Source: Alicyclobacillus sendaiensis NBRC 100866 (GTDB taxonomy: Bacteria > Bacillota > Bacilli > Alicyclobacillales > Alicyclobacillaceae). From it: a DNA stretch of 40,004 bases. The notes under the pieces were generated by a model that did not search any database, was not told where the DNA came from, and saw only the letters and a program-made list of their open reading frames with translations. Both the position numbers and the translations under genes were made by a program. Location of the stretch: positions 1 to 40,004 of the forward strand of contig NZ_BCRQ01000023.1 of NCBI RefSeq assembly GCF_001552675.1, given 5' to 3'. The number at the start of each line of letters is the position of its first letter. The first letter of the stretch is position 1. Shown in pieces: positions 6,426 to 17,419 of the stretch.

Positions 6426-6451
6426 TGTAAACCCCGTGTAAAGTTTGTGAA
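6426..6451 (-). promoter_or_regulatory. Inverted PhoP-type hexamers
   Basis: On the minus strand this stretch reads TTCACA, TTTACA, TTTACA (5' ends 6451, 6442, 6431). The last two are 11 bp apart. They face away from the direct array at 6469-6507. No -10 element lies at the expected distance to the left, so this is more likely an extra regulator-binding cluster than a promoter. Confidence 0.4.
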
Positions 6452-6468
6452 GCTCTTTCCGACAAATC

Positions 6469-6522
6469 TTCACACCAAATTCAGCATCTCTCCAAGGCGC
6501 CTTCACATCCCCTTGCTACGCT
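6469..6522 (+). promoter_or_regulatory. PhoP-box promoter of pstSCA
   Basis: Four hexamers lie exactly 11 bp apart: TTCACA (6469), TTCAGC (6480), TCCAAG (6491) and TTCACA (6502). This matches the known Bacillus PhoP box (TT(A/C/T)ACA repeats with about 5-bp gaps). An extended -10, TGCTACGCT with hexamer TACGCT at 6517-6522, begins 15 bp after the start of the last hexamer. There is no good -35, as expected for an activator-dependent promoter. The same geometry recurs at 17010-17074 and, on the other strand, at 16886-16939. Confidence 0.8.
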
Positions 6523-6602
6523 CATCCTCGAGGGCGGCGGATGGTTTTGCTGCTTCCGCCTCAAACTTACGTAGCAAAGAAGACGATAAGGGGGACCTTT
6601 GC

Positions 6603-7730
6603 GTGAAGTTGCGTTCGAAGTGGTTTGCGGGTCTGGCGGCTGTCGCCGCAGTCGGTGTCGTGGCGGGGTGCGGAACATCGAATTCGTCTTCGTCGACGCA
6701 GAACGCTGCGCCCAGCAACTCGTCCCAGCAGGCGGCCAGCGTCGCGAATGTCACGCTCACCGAGACGGGATCGTCGCTGTTGTATCCGCTCTTCAACGCG
6801 CAGTGGATTCCTGCCTACCATAAGCTTCACCCCGACGTGCAGATGACCGCTGCGTCGACCGGGAGCGGAACGGGCATCTCCGATGCCATCGCTGGTACGG
6901 CGGACATCGGCGCGTCGGACGCGTACATGGCGGACGCTCAGATTCAGCAGCATCCCGATATGCTGAACATCCCGGTGGCTATTTCTGCGCAGCAGATCAT
7001 GTACAACCTGCCTGGCGTGAAGGGTCACCTCCACCTGAGCGGCGAAGTGCTCGCCGAGATCTATGAAGGCAAGATCCAGTACTGGGACGACGCGAAGATC
7101 AAAGCGCTCAACCCGGGCGTGAAGCTCCTGCATCAGGTTATCAAGCCCGTGGTGCGCTCGGACGGCTCCGGAGACACGTTCCTCTTTACCCAGTATCTGA
7201 GCAAGTCGAGCGCAGCGTGGAACCAGAATTACGGGTATGGCACTACCATCTCGTGGCCAGGTCTGCAGACGGAAATTGGTGCTAAGGGCAACCAGGGCGT
7301 AGTGGCCGCGCTCGCGAAGACGCCGTATTCCATCGGCTATGTGGGCATCAGCTGGTTGGACAAGGCGGTCCAACAGGGGCTTGGTTACGCGGCGCTTGAA
7401 AACAAAGCCGGCAAGTACGTGTTGCCGACCAGTGCGACCATCGAGGCCGCTGCGCAGGAGGGCGTGAAGAACGTGCCGGCCGACGAGCGGATTTCGCTCA
7501 TCGACGAGCCGGGCGCGAACTCGTACCCCATCATCAACTTCGAATACCTCATCGTGAAAGACGATCAGCCGAATGCGGCCAAAGCGGACGCGCTGAAGGC
7601 GTTCTTGAATTGGGCTATCAACCCGTCGGAAGGCAACAGCGCGAAGTTTTTGACGCCCGTGCACTTCCTGCCGCTGCCGACGAGCGTGCACGCCAAGAGC
7701 GAGGCGCAGATCGAGAAGATCAAAGGCTGA
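6603..7730 (+). CDS. pstS: Phosphate-binding lipoprotein
   Basis: PstS is the extracellular, lipid-anchored receptor that captures orthophosphate for the PstCAB ABC importer. The GTG at 6603 has GGGGGA about 8 bases upstream and gives 375 residues. The signal sequence runs VKLRSKWFAGLAAVAAVG and the lipobox VVAGC puts the modified Cys at residue 23, followed by a Ser/Asn/Gln-rich linker. Family motifs are ETGSSLLYPLF near the N-terminus, the phosphate-contacting STGSGTGISDAIAG, and RSDGSGDTFLFTQYLS in the middle. The protein is in the PstS family of solute-binding proteins and is first in pstS-C-A, behind the PhoP-type promoter. Confidence 0.95.
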   Translation: MKLRSKWFAGLAAVAAVGVVAGCGTSNSSSSTQNAAPSNSSQQAASVANVTLTETGSSLLYPLFNAQWIPAYHKLHPDVQMTAASTGSGTGISDAIAGTADIGASDAYMADAQIQQHPDMLNIPVAISAQQIMYNLPGVKGHLHLSGEVLAEIYEGKIQYWDDAKIKALNPGVKLLHQVIKPVVRSDGSGDTFLFTQYLSKSSAAWNQNYGYGTTISWPGLQTEIGAKGNQGVVAALAKTPYSIGYVGISWLDKAVQQGLGYAALENKAGKYVLPTSATIEAAAQEGVKNVPADERISLIDEPGANSYPIINFEYLIVKDDQPNAAKADALKAFLNWAINPSEGNSAKFLTPVHFLPLPTSVHAKSEAQIEKIKG

Positions 7731-9775: not shown

Positions 9776-10948
9776 ATGCGCCGCGTTTTGCTGATGACCG
9801 CGTCCTTTGGCTCGGGGCACAACCAGGCGGCGTACGCCGTGATGGAGGCGCTCAAGGAAAAAGATGCCGAAGTGGAAGTGGTCGACTACGTCGGGCTCCT
9901 GAATCCAGCGCTGCGCTCGTTTGCGAAGTTCAGCCTGATTCAGGGCGTGAAGCGGGCGCCGGGTTTGTACGGCCTTTTTTATAAATCCATGTCGCGCATC
10001 GACCCGGATTCCGCGCTTCAGCGATATGTCAACCACATCGGTATTGAGCGCATCGAGGAGTACATTGCGTACTACCGACCTGACTGCATCGCGAGCACGT
10101 TTCCGACGCCAATGGGGGTCGTCGGCGAACTGCGCCGCGCGGGGAAAATCGATATTCCGAATCTGGCCATCGTGACGGACTACACGGCCCATCGCCAATG
10201 GTATCACGACTTCGCGGACCACTACTTCGTCGCCACGGACGAGGTGAAGCGGGATCTCGTCTCTTACGGGATTCCGGAAGACGCGGTGGATGTCGTTGGA
10301 ATCCCGCTCAGGCGGAAGTTCAGGGAGGAAAACGTCGAGCGCCTTTTGGCGCATCGGGCTGAATTGATCCGTTCAATCGGATTTCAAGAAGACATCCCTA
10401 TCATCTTGCTCATGGGAGGCGGGAGCGGGATTCTGGCCGATCCCGGCGTGTGGGAGTCGTTCATTCCCGAGTCGGGGATGCAGTATCTCATCATCTGTGG
10501 CCACAATCGCCGACTGGAGCGCCGCTTCTCCGCCCTTCAGAGCGAGCGCGTCCGCGTGTTCGGATACACCAATGAGATCGAGAAGTACATGGCGATGGCG
10601 GATCTCATCGTCACGAAGCCCGGCGGACTCACGCTGACCGAATCCATTGCGATGCGCTTGCCCCTCCTCATCTACCGGCCCATTCCCGGTCAGGAGGAGG
10701 CTAACGCGCGCTTCGCCGAGCAGGCGGGTGTGGCGGTGTGCGTGAAGTCTCCGGCGGAAGCTCAGGCGTTCTTGCTCTCCGTGCGCGAAGATCCGTCGAT
10801 TCTGAGCCGCATGCGCGAGGCCTGTAGTGCAATGCCAAGCTGTGGTGCGGCGGAGCGCATCGCGCAAAAGATCATACTGTATGCCACGAAGAAGCTGCCG
10901 TGCCGCTCCGTGTCGCCGGAGTGGCCGCCCGAGCTTCTTCCGACGTGA
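9776..10948 (+). CDS. GT28 diacylglycerol glycosyltransferase-like protein (first copy)
   Basis: Likely transfers a sugar from a UDP-sugar to diacylglycerol or a similar lipid at the inner membrane face, as UgtP and MGDG synthases do. The 390-residue protein has an N-terminal MGDG-synthase domain, with LLMTASFGSGHNQAA near residues 5-19 and ATFPTP-like acceptor-side loop STFPTPMGVVGEL near 105. A C-terminal GT28 nucleotide-sugar domain follows: LLMGGGSGILAD near 215, TKPGGLTLTESIAMRLPLL near 277, and PIPGQEEANA. Length is normal for the family. Sugar and acceptor cannot be read from sequence. It starts the four-gene operon 9776-13430, with a GAGGGGG ribosome site. Confidence 0.8.
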   Translation: MRRVLLMTASFGSGHNQAAYAVMEALKEKDAEVEVVDYVGLLNPALRSFAKFSLIQGVKRAPGLYGLFYKSMSRIDPDSALQRYVNHIGIERIEEYIAYYRPDCIASTFPTPMGVVGELRRAGKIDIPNLAIVTDYTAHRQWYHDFADHYFVATDEVKRDLVSYGIPEDAVDVVGIPLRRKFREENVERLLAHRAELIRSIGFQEDIPIILLMGGGSGILADPGVWESFIPESGMQYLIICGHNRRLERRFSALQSERVRVFGYTNEIEKYMAMADLIVTKPGGLTLTESIAMRLPLLIYRPIPGQEEANARFAEQAGVAVCVKSPAEAQAFLLSVREDPSILSRMREACSAMPSCGAAERIAQKIILYATKKLPCRSVSPEWPPELLPT

Positions 10949-10959
10949 GAGGGAATGTC

Positions 10960-11658
10960 GTGATCGAGTGGTTGATCGCCGTGGTCCTCGCCGTTCTCGT
11001 GGTGTATGCGGGGCTGCCGTTCGTCTGGACTCGGGGCCTCGGGCGCTCGTGTATCCGCAGGACGCCGAAGCCCGGGTGTGTGGCGCTCACCTTTGACGAC
11101 GGGCCTCATCCCGTGTACACGCCCCGGCTTTTGGACGCGCTCAGGGAAGCGGGAGCAAGAGCCACGTTCTTCGTGATCGCCGAGCACGCGCTCCGCCATC
11201 CCGAGATAGTCGAGCGGATGTTGGCGGAGGGGCACGAAGTGCAGGTGCACGGGTATCGGCATTGGTTTGTGCCGCTGTTGCCCCCCGGACTCACGGCGCG
11301 CCAGTGCGTGGGGGCCAAGGACGTCTTGGCGCAGCGGTTCGGCATCGAGCCCCGCGTCTACCGGCCGACCTGGGGAGCGTGCAACCTGGCGACGCTCGTC
11401 GTGCTCAAGCGGCGCCGCATGTCGATGCTGCTGTGGAGCGTCATGGTGGGCGACTGGCGACGAACGCCGCCGGAGGAACTGGTGCGCCGGATTGTCGCCA
11501 AGCTCGACGCGCGCTCGGTCATCGTGCTCCACGACAGCGATGAGTCCCCGGGCGCAGAGCGCGGTGCGCCGGAAAGCGTGATTGCGGCCGTCCCGGCCGT
11601 GGTCGAGGAAGTGCGCAGACGCGGATACACATTCGTGCTCGCGTCGGAATGCGAGTAG
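10960..11658 (+). CDS. NodB-type polysaccharide deacetylase
   Basis: Predicted metal-dependent de-N-acetylase acting outside the membrane on peptidoglycan or another amino-sugar polymer. The GTG at 10960 (GAGAGGGA upstream) gives 232 residues starting with an uncleaved-looking membrane anchor, IEWLIAVVLAVLVVYAGLPF. Catalytic motifs are TFDDGPH near residue 45 (catalytic base and metal Asp), HGYRH near 102 as the HxxxH metal pair, YRPTWG near 130 in place of the usual RPPyG, and VLHDSDES near 190 with the C-terminal His. Motifs look intact, so it should be active. It sits 11 bases after the first glycosyltransferase stop and shares its operon. Confidence 0.82.
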   Translation: MIEWLIAVVLAVLVVYAGLPFVWTRGLGRSCIRRTPKPGCVALTFDDGPHPVYTPRLLDALREAGARATFFVIAEHALRHPEIVERMLAEGHEVQVHGYRHWFVPLLPPGLTARQCVGAKDVLAQRFGIEPRVYRPTWGACNLATLVVLKRRRMSMLLWSVMVGDWRRTPPEELVRRIVAKLDARSVIVLHDSDESPGAERGAPESVIAAVPAVVEEVRRRGYTFVLASECE

Positions 11659-11670
11659 GGAGGGGAGACC

Positions 11671-12300
11671 ATGCCTAATCGGGCAGCGCGGGCGGTCTTT
11701 GATGCATGGGAAGCGTTATTTCATCGCGCTCTGCACCTGGAGGAACTCGAGCCCGGCACAGAGCACCTGTTTTTCGTTGCCCGCCGTCGGTATCTCGGTC
11801 GGACCTTCGAGGTGGACGGGATTGTGGTTCGTCCGGGCGATCCCGTCGTGGAAATGCACATGAACAACGCGCTCATCGAACGGGCGCTTCGCGAGGACAC
11901 GAACATTGTGCGGGCCATTGTGCGGCTGCTGAGGCAAGCGCGCGTCTCACTTCCTGCGCTCGCGAGAGCGGTTCAACATGAAAAATATCGAGACGCCCAG
12001 GTGTTGTATGGCATCACCATGATCCATCGCGGCATCGAGCACTTCGGCTTTCACACGTACCCGCTCCGCAATCCGTTCGTGCGCGCGGTGACCAGCTGGC
12101 ACCTGACCAATATCCTGAGAATGGTGAATCCGGACGCGGATCATATCCTGGAGACCCATCGAGATGTGTTACAGCCGAAGCTCGTCGTCGCTTCCAAGGA
12201 GAAGATCATCGAGATGTTTGGCGAAGGCTCGCTCCCGGGCCGCGAAGGCGCAATGGCCGACGGCCAAGGCCGCGGTGAGGTTGTGTCCCTGGACTCATGA
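11671..12300 (+). CDS. YkoP-like protein of unknown function
   Basis: A 209-residue soluble protein with no signal peptide or membrane helix. From memory it resembles the Bacillus YkoP-type domain, which occurs beside or fused to NodB deacetylases and near UgtP-like glycosyltransferases; no biochemical role is established that I can cite. Visible features include ARRRYLGRTFEVDG, VVEMHMNNALIE, GFHTYPLRNPFVRAVTSWHL and a variable Gly-rich tail. Its GGGAGG ribosome site and 12-base gap after the deacetylase, and the ATGA overlap with the following glycosyltransferase, tie it to envelope glycoconjugate synthesis. The YkoP assignment is moderate. Confidence 0.6.
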   Translation: MPNRAARAVFDAWEALFHRALHLEELEPGTEHLFFVARRRYLGRTFEVDGIVVRPGDPVVEMHMNNALIERALREDTNIVRAIVRLLRQARVSLPALARAVQHEKYRDAQVLYGITMIHRGIEHFGFHTYPLRNPFVRAVTSWHLTNILRMVNPDADHILETHRDVLQPKLVVASKEKIIEMFGEGSLPGREGAMADGQGRGEVVSLDS

Positions 12301-13430
12301 GGTGTCTTCTGCTCTATGCTTCATTTGGCGACGGGCATGTCCAGGTGGCGCGAGCGCTCTCGGAAGCGCTCGCGCGGGATCTCGGAGCGGAAGTTCGCGC
12401 GGTGGACACGTTTCGGCAGACCAACGCATCGCTCGCGAGGGTGAACGAGCGAATTTTCGAATGGACCACGCGTTACGCGCCTGCGCTCTACGGCTGGAGT
12501 TACGATTGGACGAAAAACTTCTCCATTCGTCACCCTCTGTGGGCGTTTTTGGCGCGTTTTTCGCGCAAAGCGGCGTGGCGCGCCATCCGAGATTTTCATC
12601 CGGACGTGATTGTGCAACTGTTTCCGGACCACGCGCTGGCGAAGCTGCCGCCAGGTCCGCGGCCGCTGGTGGCCGTGGTGCTCACGGATTTCGCGGTGCA
12701 CAGCCGATGGGTGCATGGGAATGCGGATCTCATCGTCGTGCCGACGGAGGAAGCGGCGGCCCATGTTCGCCGCCTTCGCGCGGACGTCCGCGTGGAGGTG
12801 GGCGGCATTCCGGTGCGGGATCAGTTTCGCCGGTGTGCGCTCTCTCGCCTTGACGGTGGGCGCCGCATCGTACTCTTGACCGGCGGGCGAGGCGTGTTTC
12901 CTCAGTACGAGGGTGTACTCGAGCGGCTCATTCGCCACTTTCCCCACCACCTCATCGAGGTCATGTGCGGTCGAAACACGCGCATGCTGGAACGAGTGGA
13001 GGCTTTCGCGGGGCGAGCGGGCCGCGCGAGGATTCGGCCCATCGGTTTCACGGACGATGTGGCGAGCCATCTTCAGCAAGCGGAGTTTGTCATCGCGAAG
13101 GCGGGCGGCGTGACCATCGCCGAGTGCTTGGCCTCGGGCACGCCCATGGTGTTTTACAAGCCGCTGCCGGGGCAAGAGCGGGAAAACGCGAAGTGCATTG
13201 AGCGGCTCGGCGCCGGACGGATTGCCAACACGCTGGCTGATCTCGACCGCCTCTTCGCCTGCTGGTCTGAGGAGACGCAACCCGCCATGCGGCTGCGGGC
13301 GGTCGAGCTGGGGAAACCCGGAGCCGCGTCGTACGTATCCGCCTGTCTCGCTCGGGCGTGGGAGCGCCATCGAGCGGTGGAGGAAGGGGCACCGGCCGCG
13401 GCTCCTGTGGTGCTTCAGGAGAGAGGGTGA
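12297..13430 (+). CDS. GT28 diacylglycerol glycosyltransferase-like protein (second copy)
   Basis: A paralogue of the gene at 9776 (377 residues), with the same two-domain layout. LLYASFGDGHVQVARAL lies at the N-terminus and QLFPDHALAKL marks the acceptor-side loop. LLTGGRGVFPQ, AKAGGVTIAECLASG and PLPGQERENA form the GT28 donor site. Compared with the first copy, the SFGSGHNQAA motif becomes SFGDGHVQVA, so acceptor or step may differ, for example addition of a second sugar. The ATG overlaps the preceding stop (ATGA), implying translational coupling. Its 3' end overlaps the convergent flavin reductase gene by 16 bp. Confidence 0.75.
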   Translation: MRCLLLYASFGDGHVQVARALSEALARDLGAEVRAVDTFRQTNASLARVNERIFEWTTRYAPALYGWSYDWTKNFSIRHPLWAFLARFSRKAAWRAIRDFHPDVIVQLFPDHALAKLPPGPRPLVAVVLTDFAVHSRWVHGNADLIVVPTEEAAAHVRRLRADVRVEVGGIPVRDQFRRCALSRLDGGRRIVLLTGGRGVFPQYEGVLERLIRHFPHHLIEVMCGRNTRMLERVEAFAGRAGRARIRPIGFTDDVASHLQQAEFVIAKAGGVTIAECLASGTPMVFYKPLPGQERENAKCIERLGAGRIANTLADLDRLFACWSEETQPAMRLRAVELGKPGAASYVSACLARAWERHRAVEEGAPAAAPVVLQERG

Positions 13431-15368: not shown

Positions 15369-16025
15369 TTAGTTCAGATCCGACCGCTCGCCGGTCAGGA
15401 TGTACAGAACGCTCTCGCCGATGTTGGTGACGTGATCGCCGATGCGCTCGAGGTAACGGCCGCAGAACGCGATGAGCATGCGTTCCTGCGGCGTTCCGCT
15501 AGCGTCAGGACCGTCGGCGAAGAGTCGTTCCACGAGCAGGCGGTAATCGCGGTCCACCGCGTCGTCCATCTCGGCCAGCCGGCGCGCAGCGTCCGGGTCG
15601 CTGTTCACGTAGGCGTTCAGGCCCTCCGAGACCATGCCATCGACCGCTTGCGCCATCTCCTGCAGGTGGTGCGCCACGTCGGGCGCGGGCGGCGCCGTCA
15701 GGCGCAGAGCGGTTTTGGCGAGATCCACGGCGAGATCGCCCATTCGCTCGAGATCCACGGCGAGCCGCATGCCTGCGACGATTCTGCGAAGATCGCCCGC
15801 GACGGGCTGCTGCGTGGCGATGAGGCGGATGCAAAGGTCCTCGGTTTCGTGGTCTTGGCGGTTGACCTCCCGATCTCGTTCGATGACGCGTTCTGCGAGC
15901 GCCTTGTCGTGTTTCAGCACAGCCGCCACCGCGTGGCGAATGGACTCCTGCACATCTCCACCCATGTGAAGGAGTTTCAACTTCAGTTCCTTGAGGGCGA
16001 TGTCAAAGGCCTGGCGTTGTTGCAT
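15369..16025 (-). CDS. phoU: Phosphate signalling regulator PhoU
   Basis: PhoU links Pst transporter activity to the PhoR/PhoP-type two-component system and dampens phosphate uptake. The 218-residue protein shows two PhoU helical repeats, each with the acidic metal-binding signature: ERDREVNRQDHETEDLCIR in the first (residues about 48-66) and EMDDAVDRDYRLLVERLF in the second. The ERMGDLAVDLAK and ERIGDHVTNIGE helices are diagnostic of the family. It follows pstB by 36 bp on the minus strand and shares the PhoP-type promoter at 16886-16939. Confidence 0.95.
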   Translation of the reverse strand: MQQRQAFDIALKELKLKLLHMGGDVQESIRHAVAAVLKHDKALAERVIERDREVNRQDHETEDLCIRLIATQQPVAGDLRRIVAGMRLAVDLERMGDLAVDLAKTALRLTAPPAPDVAHHLQEMAQAVDGMVSEGLNAYVNSDPDAARRLAEMDDAVDRDYRLLVERLFADGPDASGTPQERMLIAFCGRYLERIGDHVTNIGESVLYILTGERSDLN

Positions 16026-16061: not shown

Positions 16062-16814
16062 TCATCCAAACCGTCCCGTGATGTAGTCTTCCGTGCGCTT
16101 GTCCTTCGGCTTGGTGAACATTTGCGTCGTGTCGTCCATCTCGATGAGATGGCCCTGGTAGAAGAACGCCGTCTTGTCCGCGATGCGGGCTGCCTGCTGC
16201 ATGTTGTGCGTGACGATCACGACGGTGTACGTCTGCTTGATCTCTTCGATAAGCTCTTCGATGCGCATGGTCGAGATGGGATCGAGGGCAGAAGCGGGTT
16301 CGTCCATCAACAGGACTTCCGGCTCCACGGCAAGCGCGCGAGCAATGCACAGGCGCTGCTGCTGGCCGCCCGACAGCGCGGTCGCGGGTTTCGCCAAGCG
16401 ATCTTTCACCTCGTCCCACAGGGCCGCCATCCGCAGCGCCCGCTCCACGCGATCCCGCAATTCGCTACTGCGCCGAACGCCCGCCAGTTTTAATCCGATG
16501 GCGATGTTGTCGAAGATCGACATGGTGGGGAACGGGTTCGGCTTCTGGAAGACCATCCCCACCATGCGGCGGACGTCGACCGGATCCAAGTCAAACAGCG
16601 ATTCACCCGCGAGTCGGATGTCGCCTTCCACGCGGGCCTGGGGATGCGTTTCGTGCATGCGATTCAGACACCGAATGAAGGTCGACTTCCCGCAGCCCGA
16701 TGGGCCGATGATGGCGGTCACGCGATTTTCCTCGATGTCCATGTCAATCTCGTGCAACACCTGGTGTGCGCCGTACCACGCGTTTAAGCGGCGAACCGTC
16801 ATGGACTTGCCCAC
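16062..16814 (-). CDS. pstB: Phosphate ABC transporter ATPase PstB
   Basis: ATPase that powers phosphate import through PstC/PstA. The 250 residues carry Walker [10 protein letters not shown] at 37-45, a Q-loop in [19 protein letters not shown] (the KPNPFP stretch is PstB-specific), signature LSGGQQQR, Walker [13 protein letters not shown], and the switch His in [10 protein letters not shown]. The C-terminus ends with the typical [10 protein letters not shown]. The gene is not with pstSCA; it lies 6.5 kb away, divergently oriented, as pstB-phoU. The ATG is about 65 nt downstream of the predicted transcription start. Confidence 0.96.
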
Positions 16815-16885
16815 GACTTGTCTCCTCCCAATCCTATTCGGTTTCCCGTCTCTTTATCCTCTGGACACGCACGATTCCGCAGAAC

Positions 16886-16939
16886 ACAATACCGGGTCAA
16901 TGTTAAGGACGTGTGAGGTTTATGTAGATTTTTATGTGG
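16886..16939 (-). promoter_or_regulatory. PhoP-box promoter of pstB-phoU
   Basis: On the minus strand four hexamers recur at exactly 11 bp: CCACAT (16939-16934), TCTACA (16928-16923), CTCACA (16917-16912) and TTAACA (16906-16901). The -10 TATTGT (16891-16886) starts 15 bp after the start of the last hexamer, the same distance as at pstS. The hexamers are less perfect than at pstS. Confidence 0.68.
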
Positions 16940-17009
16940 GCCGCCGTCTCGAGAAACGGCCCGTCACGTTGTCAAATCCGCTCGGCCATCCCGCCGCGCG
17001 GCAGAGAAT

Positions 17010-17074
17010 TTCAAAGTCTTTCAACGGCGTCTTCACAATGCCCTTAACGTGCCTTTACGTTTCGGTGCTACAGT
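17010..17074 (+). promoter_or_regulatory. PhoP-box promoter facing away from pstB
   Basis: Five hexamer positions at 11-bp steps: TTCAAA (17010), TCAACG (17021), TTCACA (17032), CTTAAC (17043) and TTTACG (17054). The extended -10 TGCTACAGT (hexamer 17069-17074) starts its TG 12 bp, and its hexamer 15 bp, after the start of the last repeat; both distances equal those at pstS, where the extended -10 is TGCTACGCT. It points right, away from pstB-phoU, into the candidate small RNA. Confidence 0.72.
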
Positions 17075-17080
17075 GAGAGT

Positions 17081-17158
17081 GCGCTGGACCTGTGCTTAAG
17101 CGGTTCGTGCATGAACCCCAATCCGCGCTTGCCGCCCCTTCACGGGGCGGTTCTTTTT
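17081..17158 (+). ncRNA. Candidate phosphate-regulated small RNA, ~78 nt
   Basis: A predicted transcript runs from about 17081 (7 bases after the -10) to a strong intrinsic terminator. It contains a first hairpin, GGTTC (17102-17106) with GAACC (17113-17117) and loop GTGCAT. A single-stranded linker follows, then the terminator CCGCCCC (17132-17138), loop TTCAC, GGGGCGG (17144-17150) and TTCTTTTT (17151-17158). No start codon with a ribosome site lies inside, and frames open here run straight through the terminator. The next gene, a ferredoxin, is 260 bp further on with its own promoter, so this is unlikely to be just its leader. Transcription, size and targets are inferred. Confidence 0.58.
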
Positions 17159-17340
17159 GGCGCGTCGCCGTGCGAACGCGAGTCGGTTGTCCGCGCTTAC
17201 CTGGTTGCAAATCTATGCGCCCATCCGCGAGACACGGAGACATCCATCCAAACGGGACGAACGCTTGCAGAATCCGCGCCAATCAAGGCTTCGCGCAACA
17301 AAATGATGCAAGATGGGGCAATCGGTCAAAAAACTTTCGT
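17159..17340. other. Spacer with no recognisable gene
   Basis: Between the small-RNA terminator and the ferredoxin promoter I see no coding frame with a ribosome site, no repeat and no clear hairpin. With the flanking elements it completes the 605-bp gap between pstB and the ferredoxin gene. Confidence 0.5.
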
Positions 17341-17370
17341 TTGAGTTTTCCTATAGATTTGGTGTATATC
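17341..17370 (+). promoter_or_regulatory. Candidate promoter of the ferredoxin gene
   Basis: TTGAGT (17341-17346) and TATATC (17365-17370) with an 18-bp spacer; a TG dinucleotide directly precedes the -10. The AT-rich stretch stands out in high-GC surroundings. Confidence 0.5.
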
Positions 17371-17419
17371 TGTAAGGGGGACACCATCTACGATAAGGAT
17401 TCGAGGGAGGCTCACGCGA

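Follow-up and report, generated by a model that had tools for sequence, protein, structure and literature searches.

The window, a stretch of 40,004 nt from Alicyclobacillus sendaiensis NBRC 100866, a heat- and acid-loving bacterium, carries a phosphate cluster in which pstS, pstC and pstA are accompanied by two glycolipid synthase-like genes, a deacetylase, ykoP, phoU and pstB (Table 1). From pstC to pstB the cluster is syntenic in nine relatives where their stretches reach, the frames in relatives being named from a reading of the translations. The genes that follow pstSCA at 9776-13430 (two MGDG_synth glycolipid synthase-like genes, a polysaccharide deacetylase and a YkoP-domain gene) look like a set that, linked to the Pst genes, remodels membrane or wall so as to spare phosphate.

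Between pstB and a ferredoxin gene lies a short unit with a promoter and a terminator of its own. We predict that positions 17010-17158 of the forward strand are a real, Pho-controlled and non-coding small RNA with its promoter, and consider this combined reading likely. Taken separately, the existence of the RNA is in our judgement very likely, and its control by the Pho system is judged a shade less firmly.

Table 1. Positions of the features discussed, numbered from the first nucleotide of the window
Feature	Position	Strand	Remarks
pstS reading frame	6447-7730	+	True start downstream of 6447; TIGR00975 over its cut-off for 6582-7727
Pho-type promoter of pstS	6469-6522	+	Second-best site of the window; 9-nt gap to -10
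phoU	15369-16025	-	TIGR02135, over its cut-off; after pstB
pstB	16062-16814	-	TIGR00972, over its cut-off
Pho-type promoter of pstB	16886-16939	-	Third-best site of the window; 9-nt gap; divergent from the small RNA
Pho-type (PhoP) box	17010-17059	+	TTCAAA, TCAACG, TTCACA, CTTAAC, TTTACG at steps of about 11 bp; best-scoring site of the window, both strands
Extended -10	17066-17074	+	TGC TACAGT, TGCTACAGT; TGnTACnnT in six close species
Predicted small RNA	17080-17158	+	Some 79 nt; the -10 gives the inferred start, the T run the end
Conserved core	17080-17127	+	46 of 48 positions unchanged among six species
5' hairpin common to ten homologues (likely)	17083-17110	+	17083-17084 with 17109-17110; 17086-17089 with 17103-17106
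Putative pairing segment	17113-17124	+	GAACCCCAAUCC; ACCCC kept in all ten homologues
Intrinsic terminator	17131-17158	+	Compensatory changes at two stem positions
Ferredoxin	begins 17420	+	Family matches

The Pho-type promoter and its candidate regulator

The hexamers of the Pho-type box begin at 17010 (TTCAAA), 17021 (TCAACG, or TTCAAC from 17020), 17032 (TTCACA), 17043 (CTTAAC, or TTAACG from 17044) and 17054 (TTTACG). An earlier note on this DNA had described five TTCACA-like hexamers at 11-bp steps; they are present, the step being exactly 11 bp in the best register and 10-12 bp otherwise. It had also set the extended -10 at the same distance as in the pstS promoter, and 9 nt do separate the last hexamer from the -10 at both, as they do at the pstB promoter. 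The feature that marks a promoter as PhoP-type, namely 11-bp direct repeats of the TT(A/T/C)ACA type upstream of a -10, is present, in the same layout as at pstS and pstB. A sigma-70 scan (TTGACA) did not list the small RNA promoter.

To compare sites we used a score that combines four hexamers at 11-bp steps with a -10 at 8-10 nt, applied to both strands of the window. Across the whole window the small RNA promoter ranks first (24.0), followed by those of pstS (23.3) and pstB (21.0). The best score in 200 simulated windows of the same dinucleotide make-up (Markov-1) was at most 23.0, and the pstB score of 21.0 was reached or exceeded in 11 of the 200. Because the score was devised after the site had been seen, the pstS, pstB and homologous promoters are the fairer controls. 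All ten homologues of the small RNA carry a Pho-type promoter, scoring 22.5 to 26.5; within 3-kb loci it ranks first in nine and second in one (genome G003), where the higher-ranked site is the pstB promoter.

The PhoB model has 19 matches in the window's genome; none exceeds the cut-off, and the best lies on contig C18. There an OmpR-type regulator is followed by a PnpS/PhoR-like kinase, which comes closest to the PnpS family (399.1 bits against a cut-off of 400). The regulator falls below every NCBIfam cut-off, with MtrA best (255.7 of 300 bits) and PhoB third (244 of 296.2), so that calling it PhoP is an assignment by similarity. Read in this way, the two genes are the likely candidates for a PhoPR pair.

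Conservation, terminator and fold of the small RNA

The pstB genes of the six species that share the conserved core are invariant at 15 of 107 fourfold-degenerate sites, and their longest invariant run is 11 nt. Upstream of the core, 29% of 100 aligned columns are invariant, mostly in the Pho hexamers and the -10. That the core stays near-frozen while the adjoining pstB has lost most of its silent-site identity points strongly to a function, and near letter-identity amid changed surroundings suggests that the element is probably a real regulatory RNA.

A search at the DNA level found matches in six of the 15 genomes of the genus. The first covariance model, built from six sequences and read up to E = 1, had matches in 21 of the 41 genomes of the family, six of them strong. 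Three more homologues (G005, G010 and G012), which sit in the same neighbourhood as the small RNA, emerged among its weak matches, and a tenth (G001) was recognised by reading the pstB-ferredoxin interval. The element thus occurs in 10 of the 15 genomes; in the five others a laxer search (23 matches, best E 7.6e-4; loci L113 and L115 inspected) gave no convincing copy. Probably, then, the small RNA belongs to one part of Alicyclobacillus. The earlier note had proposed comparing this interval across the genus, and the comparison came out in its favour: promoter, core and terminator are kept in the ten genomes, with compensatory changes in the terminator stem.

A second covariance model included all ten homologues, which therefore match it by construction. 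In 59 genomes of the order it returned ten strong matches, none with an E above 9.4e-12, and nothing beyond these ten below 5e-5, either there or in a sample of 398 genomes of the class. At E up to 0.05 it matched 20 of the 59 order genomes, ten being the strong ones. Ten other loci were read, to the exclusion of five further weak matches, and none has the TTC-TGCA/ACCCC core; Pho scores at or near those read run from 13.8 to 18.0, L118 excepted. Of the 398 class genomes, 17 match at E up to 0.001, that is, the ten strong ones and seven at 1.4e-4 to 7.6e-4. Inspected loci of three of these seven (G006, L113; G250, L195; G185, L196) are without the core; the remaining ones are G195, G259, G361 and G397.

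Several other elements came to light in these searches. At L118, in another genus of the family (G018, about 1450-1590), a site with a Pho score of 21.0 ranks first of 4270 in its locus and has the 9-nt gap. Behind it follow, within a short and partly C-rich interval, a hairpin, GACCCCCC and a terminator, but the core is otherwise absent; a peptidase-like frame adjoins. The element may be distantly related to the small RNA or an analogue of it. A search of 30 sources, including pstB and ferredoxin loci from genomes that lack a copy, yielded besides the window's own site only L118 and the weak L022 and L084, without the core. A different small-RNA-like element, with GCGGAACCCCCCTGAACCCCC (one more A in L123) and a terminator, lies around 1501-1580 (turned) in L123, L124 and L125, which come from three genomes, and adjoins an NRAMP-like transporter frame in L124. 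It has TTCAA repeats upstream, with Pho scores that are not good (15.5-17.3), and no Rfam match. In L114 (G026), close to a weak model match, positions 1673-1757 are a c-di-GMP-I riboswitch (RF01051, 83.5 bits).

The transcript, put at about 78 nt in the earlier note, is predicted here at some 79 nt, and its closing hairpin has eight pairs, seven of them G-C, followed by TCTTTTT ending at 17158. Between 11000 and 19000 there are six terminator-like sites against 8.7 in shuffled sequence, fewer than expected, so that such a site alone means little. Over the whole structure 96.4% of cells pair, and the covariation of 0.373 against 0.192 +/- 0.023 in shuffles (none of 500 as high) comes from a control that takes no account of relatedness and a structure derived from the tested alignment itself. 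Two of the five structure measures (pairs changed and further pair types) are not above the shuffles. Given these properties of the control, we take the conservation of the terminator through compensatory changes in the aligned copies as shown, and the 5' hairpin as likely.

In that 5' hairpin 98.3% of cells are paired across the ten sequences, and one pair has changed on both sides (CG in six, AU in four); this single compensatory change, between clades, is the support for the helix. The earlier note had instead drawn a first hairpin of 5 bp with the loop GTGCAT. Such a hairpin, GGTTC(GTGCAT)GAACC, is able to form, but one of its five pairs is broken in four of the ten homologues and another in one, without covariation. 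We therefore set it aside; the hairpin at 17083-17110 fits the homologues better. Folded alone, the window copy has two near-equal 5' folds.

Neighbouring genes and reading frames

A Pho promoter and a premature terminator ahead of ferredoxin could form a leader or attenuator of that gene, which in the window lies on the same strand 261 nt downstream and is also close in G001, G003, G009, G010 and G011. A position fixed upstream of ferredoxin is, however, not seen across relatives. G014 has the ferredoxin segment inverted; in G002 a transposase-like frame separates it from the small RNA, and in G005 and G012 about 4-6 kb do so, yet the unit is kept in every case. On the other side, two genes lie between the small RNA and pstB in G005, G010 and G012; promoter and terminator persist together where the neighbours change, as those of an independent gene would. 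Ferredoxin, moreover, has a conserved upstream stretch of its own that moves with it. We find the leader reading scarcely credible, largely refuted as it is by the rearranged relatives and by this stretch; on this comparison of sequences, the unit is shown to be independent of ferredoxin.

The ferredoxin-linked stretch deserves mention in its own right. Its 44 nt (about 17330-17380 in the window) are identical in the six core species, including G002 and G014, and travel with ferredoxin even when inverted in G014. We read it as what may be ferredoxin's own strongly conserved promoter or control site.

For the clade of G005, G010 and G012, one may ask whether the RNA is mainly the 3' end of an upstream oxidoreductase-like mRNA, with the Pho-type promoter secondary, as the upstream frame shares the strand of the RNA and stops some 50 nt short of it. 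Counter to this, Pho-type promoters rank first in that clade too, and neither the core clade nor G001 has that gene at this place. We regard this origin as highly improbable.

An inverted repeat, GCCACGG...CGTGGC with a T-containing tail, lies on the pstB strand 135-178 nt upstream of pstB (L059-L066 and L069). It is found in nine of the ten genomes with the small RNA and is absent from the window (16815-17000). It could end a second short transcript directed towards pstB.

The earlier note had taken the RNA to be non-coding, with no start codon that has a ribosome site inside it. Both statements agree with what we found: in the window copy a Shine-Dalgarno-like sequence accompanies none of the start codons, and comparison of the ten copies shows no conserved reading frame. 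A small or leader peptide might still be sought in the sole frame that stops inside the small RNA, six codons opened by GTG or TTG near the predicted start in five of the six core species. This frame is, however, without a ribosome site and is absent in the four other homologues, and in G009 it overruns its stop because of a 1-nt deletion. The core also differs in length by 2 nt between clades. In G001 a start codon of another frame does have a Shine-Dalgarno-like sequence, but that frame overruns the terminator and is not kept elsewhere. With the six-codon frame lost or absent in five homologues, we reject a peptide on the reading-frame comparison and give it next to no credence.

Possible mode of action and known systems

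C-rich segments of the ACCCC type are used by pairing RNAs of Gram-positive bacteria. Each of the ten copies has GCG-TTC-TGCA and, after 3-5 nt, ACCCC. The putative pairing segment is predicted to be mostly unpaired in G001, G005, G010 and G012; in the window copy the minimum-energy fold has the C-rich segment partly paired. The opposite strand of the G001 core looks like a ribosome site and its start codon (GGGGGTAATCATG), a hint that the RNA pairs where translation begins.

These features can be assembled into a mechanism. When phosphate is scarce, phosphorylated PhoP would bind the 11-bp repeats and drive transcription from the extended -10, together with pstS and pstB-phoU. The intrinsic terminator would end the transcript, leaving an RNA of about 79 nt with a 5' hairpin, the C-rich segment and the terminator hairpin. 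Pairing of the C-rich segment with G-rich ribosome-binding sites may then lower translation of the mRNAs concerned, as a sparing arm of the phosphate response. Granted that the small RNA is real and Pho-controlled, we judge the chance that it is a base-pairing repressor to be about even. Somewhat more tentative, and short of an even chance in our view, is the idea that it forms a repressing arm of the phosphate regulon, in which ACCCC would cover ribosome-binding sites and shut off phosphate-costly functions, a counterpart of iron-sparing RNAs. The context for this idea is that the RNA is predicted to be made with the Pst transporter and lies beside what we read as a membrane-lipid remodelling cluster.

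A relaxed search for the core on either strand of 41 family genomes gave matches in 13, ten of which are the small RNA itself; the core matches in L097, L099 and L100 were judged by eye to be chance. The target pattern GATTGGGG(2-9)ATG, sought in five genomes, gave 53 listed matches, five of them the small RNA's own antisense, and 30 loci were read. The one good candidate is the copA start in the window's genome (contig C9, L160 about 1490-1520), where a 13-nt perfect complement lies over the ribosome site. We rejected copA as a conserved target, the 13-nt site being absent from eight other copies in seven genomes, a comparison that stopped short of the partial matches from G009 and G012 and of another two G001 copies. 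Overall, no conserved target appeared in these limited pattern searches (41 family genomes for the core, five for the ribosome-site pattern), and a duplex scan of the window, which had no null model, gave no match separable from chance.

The lack of a conserved target in limited searches could also mean that the RNA acts mainly by binding protein, as a decoy or as a dimer formed through the near-palindrome TTCRTGCAWGA, instead of pairing with mRNA. The invariant core (46 of 48) exceeds the length of a pairing seed, and TTC-TGCA is kept in all ten homologues. Against this, no repeated protein-binding motif was recognised by eye, and the ACCCC kept in all ten is typical of Gram-positive pairing RNAs. 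We consider a protein-binding role unlikely, and prefer base pairing at the graded strength given above.

No Rfam family matches the small RNA at gathering scores (the window's one match is a tRNA), so that no Rfam model of FsrA- or RsaE-like RNAs matches it either; nor, at E up to 0.5, did any match it in three homologous loci (L096, L088 and L095). Titles and abstracts in the open-access literature (small RNA with phosphate, PhoP, PhoB, Bacillus or Alicyclobacillus) yielded no such RNA. Iron, sugar and redox regulators are well known to have small RNAs among their outputs; in Bacillota we know of none that the Pho regulator controls directly.

Related observations come from other bacteria. 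A PhoB-induced small RNA of Escherichia coli is stated to act on rpoS with Hfq and to raise rpoS translation (PMC8829014), so that a Pho-driven small RNA is in itself no new idea. That RNA is said to be an output of the Pho regulator and is proteobacterial; the likeness drawn here is one of description. The same source reports that small RNAs of Sinorhizobium meliloti change with phosphate limitation, 14 of 45 changed RNAs being known to bind Hfq (PMC8829014); these too are phosphate-responsive, in Alphaproteobacteria, and are likened here by description. In Pseudomonas aeruginosa, sRNA1060 and sRNA1062 are reported to be activated by LasR and to repress phoB (PMC12506140). They also meet the phosphate regulon, whereas the Pho regulator appears to have the RNA described here among its outputs. 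A review (PMC4415409) whose main text contains neither 'small RNA' nor 'sRNA' describes the Pho boxes of E. coli, B. subtilis and others as direct repeats with a unit of 11 nt. Repeat units of 11 nt lie upstream of the pst genes in the window, and here they would also drive a non-coding RNA.

Looking across the entire analysis, the small RNA probably represents a new family within a kind of RNA already known, under a controller unusual for Bacillota. It raises the question of a post-transcriptional repressing arm in the Gram-positive phosphate response, and makes that question testable. The closest comparison is with FsrA and RoxS/RsaE of Bacillus and Staphylococcus, which are C-rich, trans-acting small RNAs under iron or redox control. 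Like them, the RNA is short, separately terminated and, by prediction, stress-controlled, with a C-rich segment able to cover G-rich ribosome-binding sites. It differs from them in having no Rfam match and in a control that appears to be of the phosphate type, where theirs is by iron or redox state.
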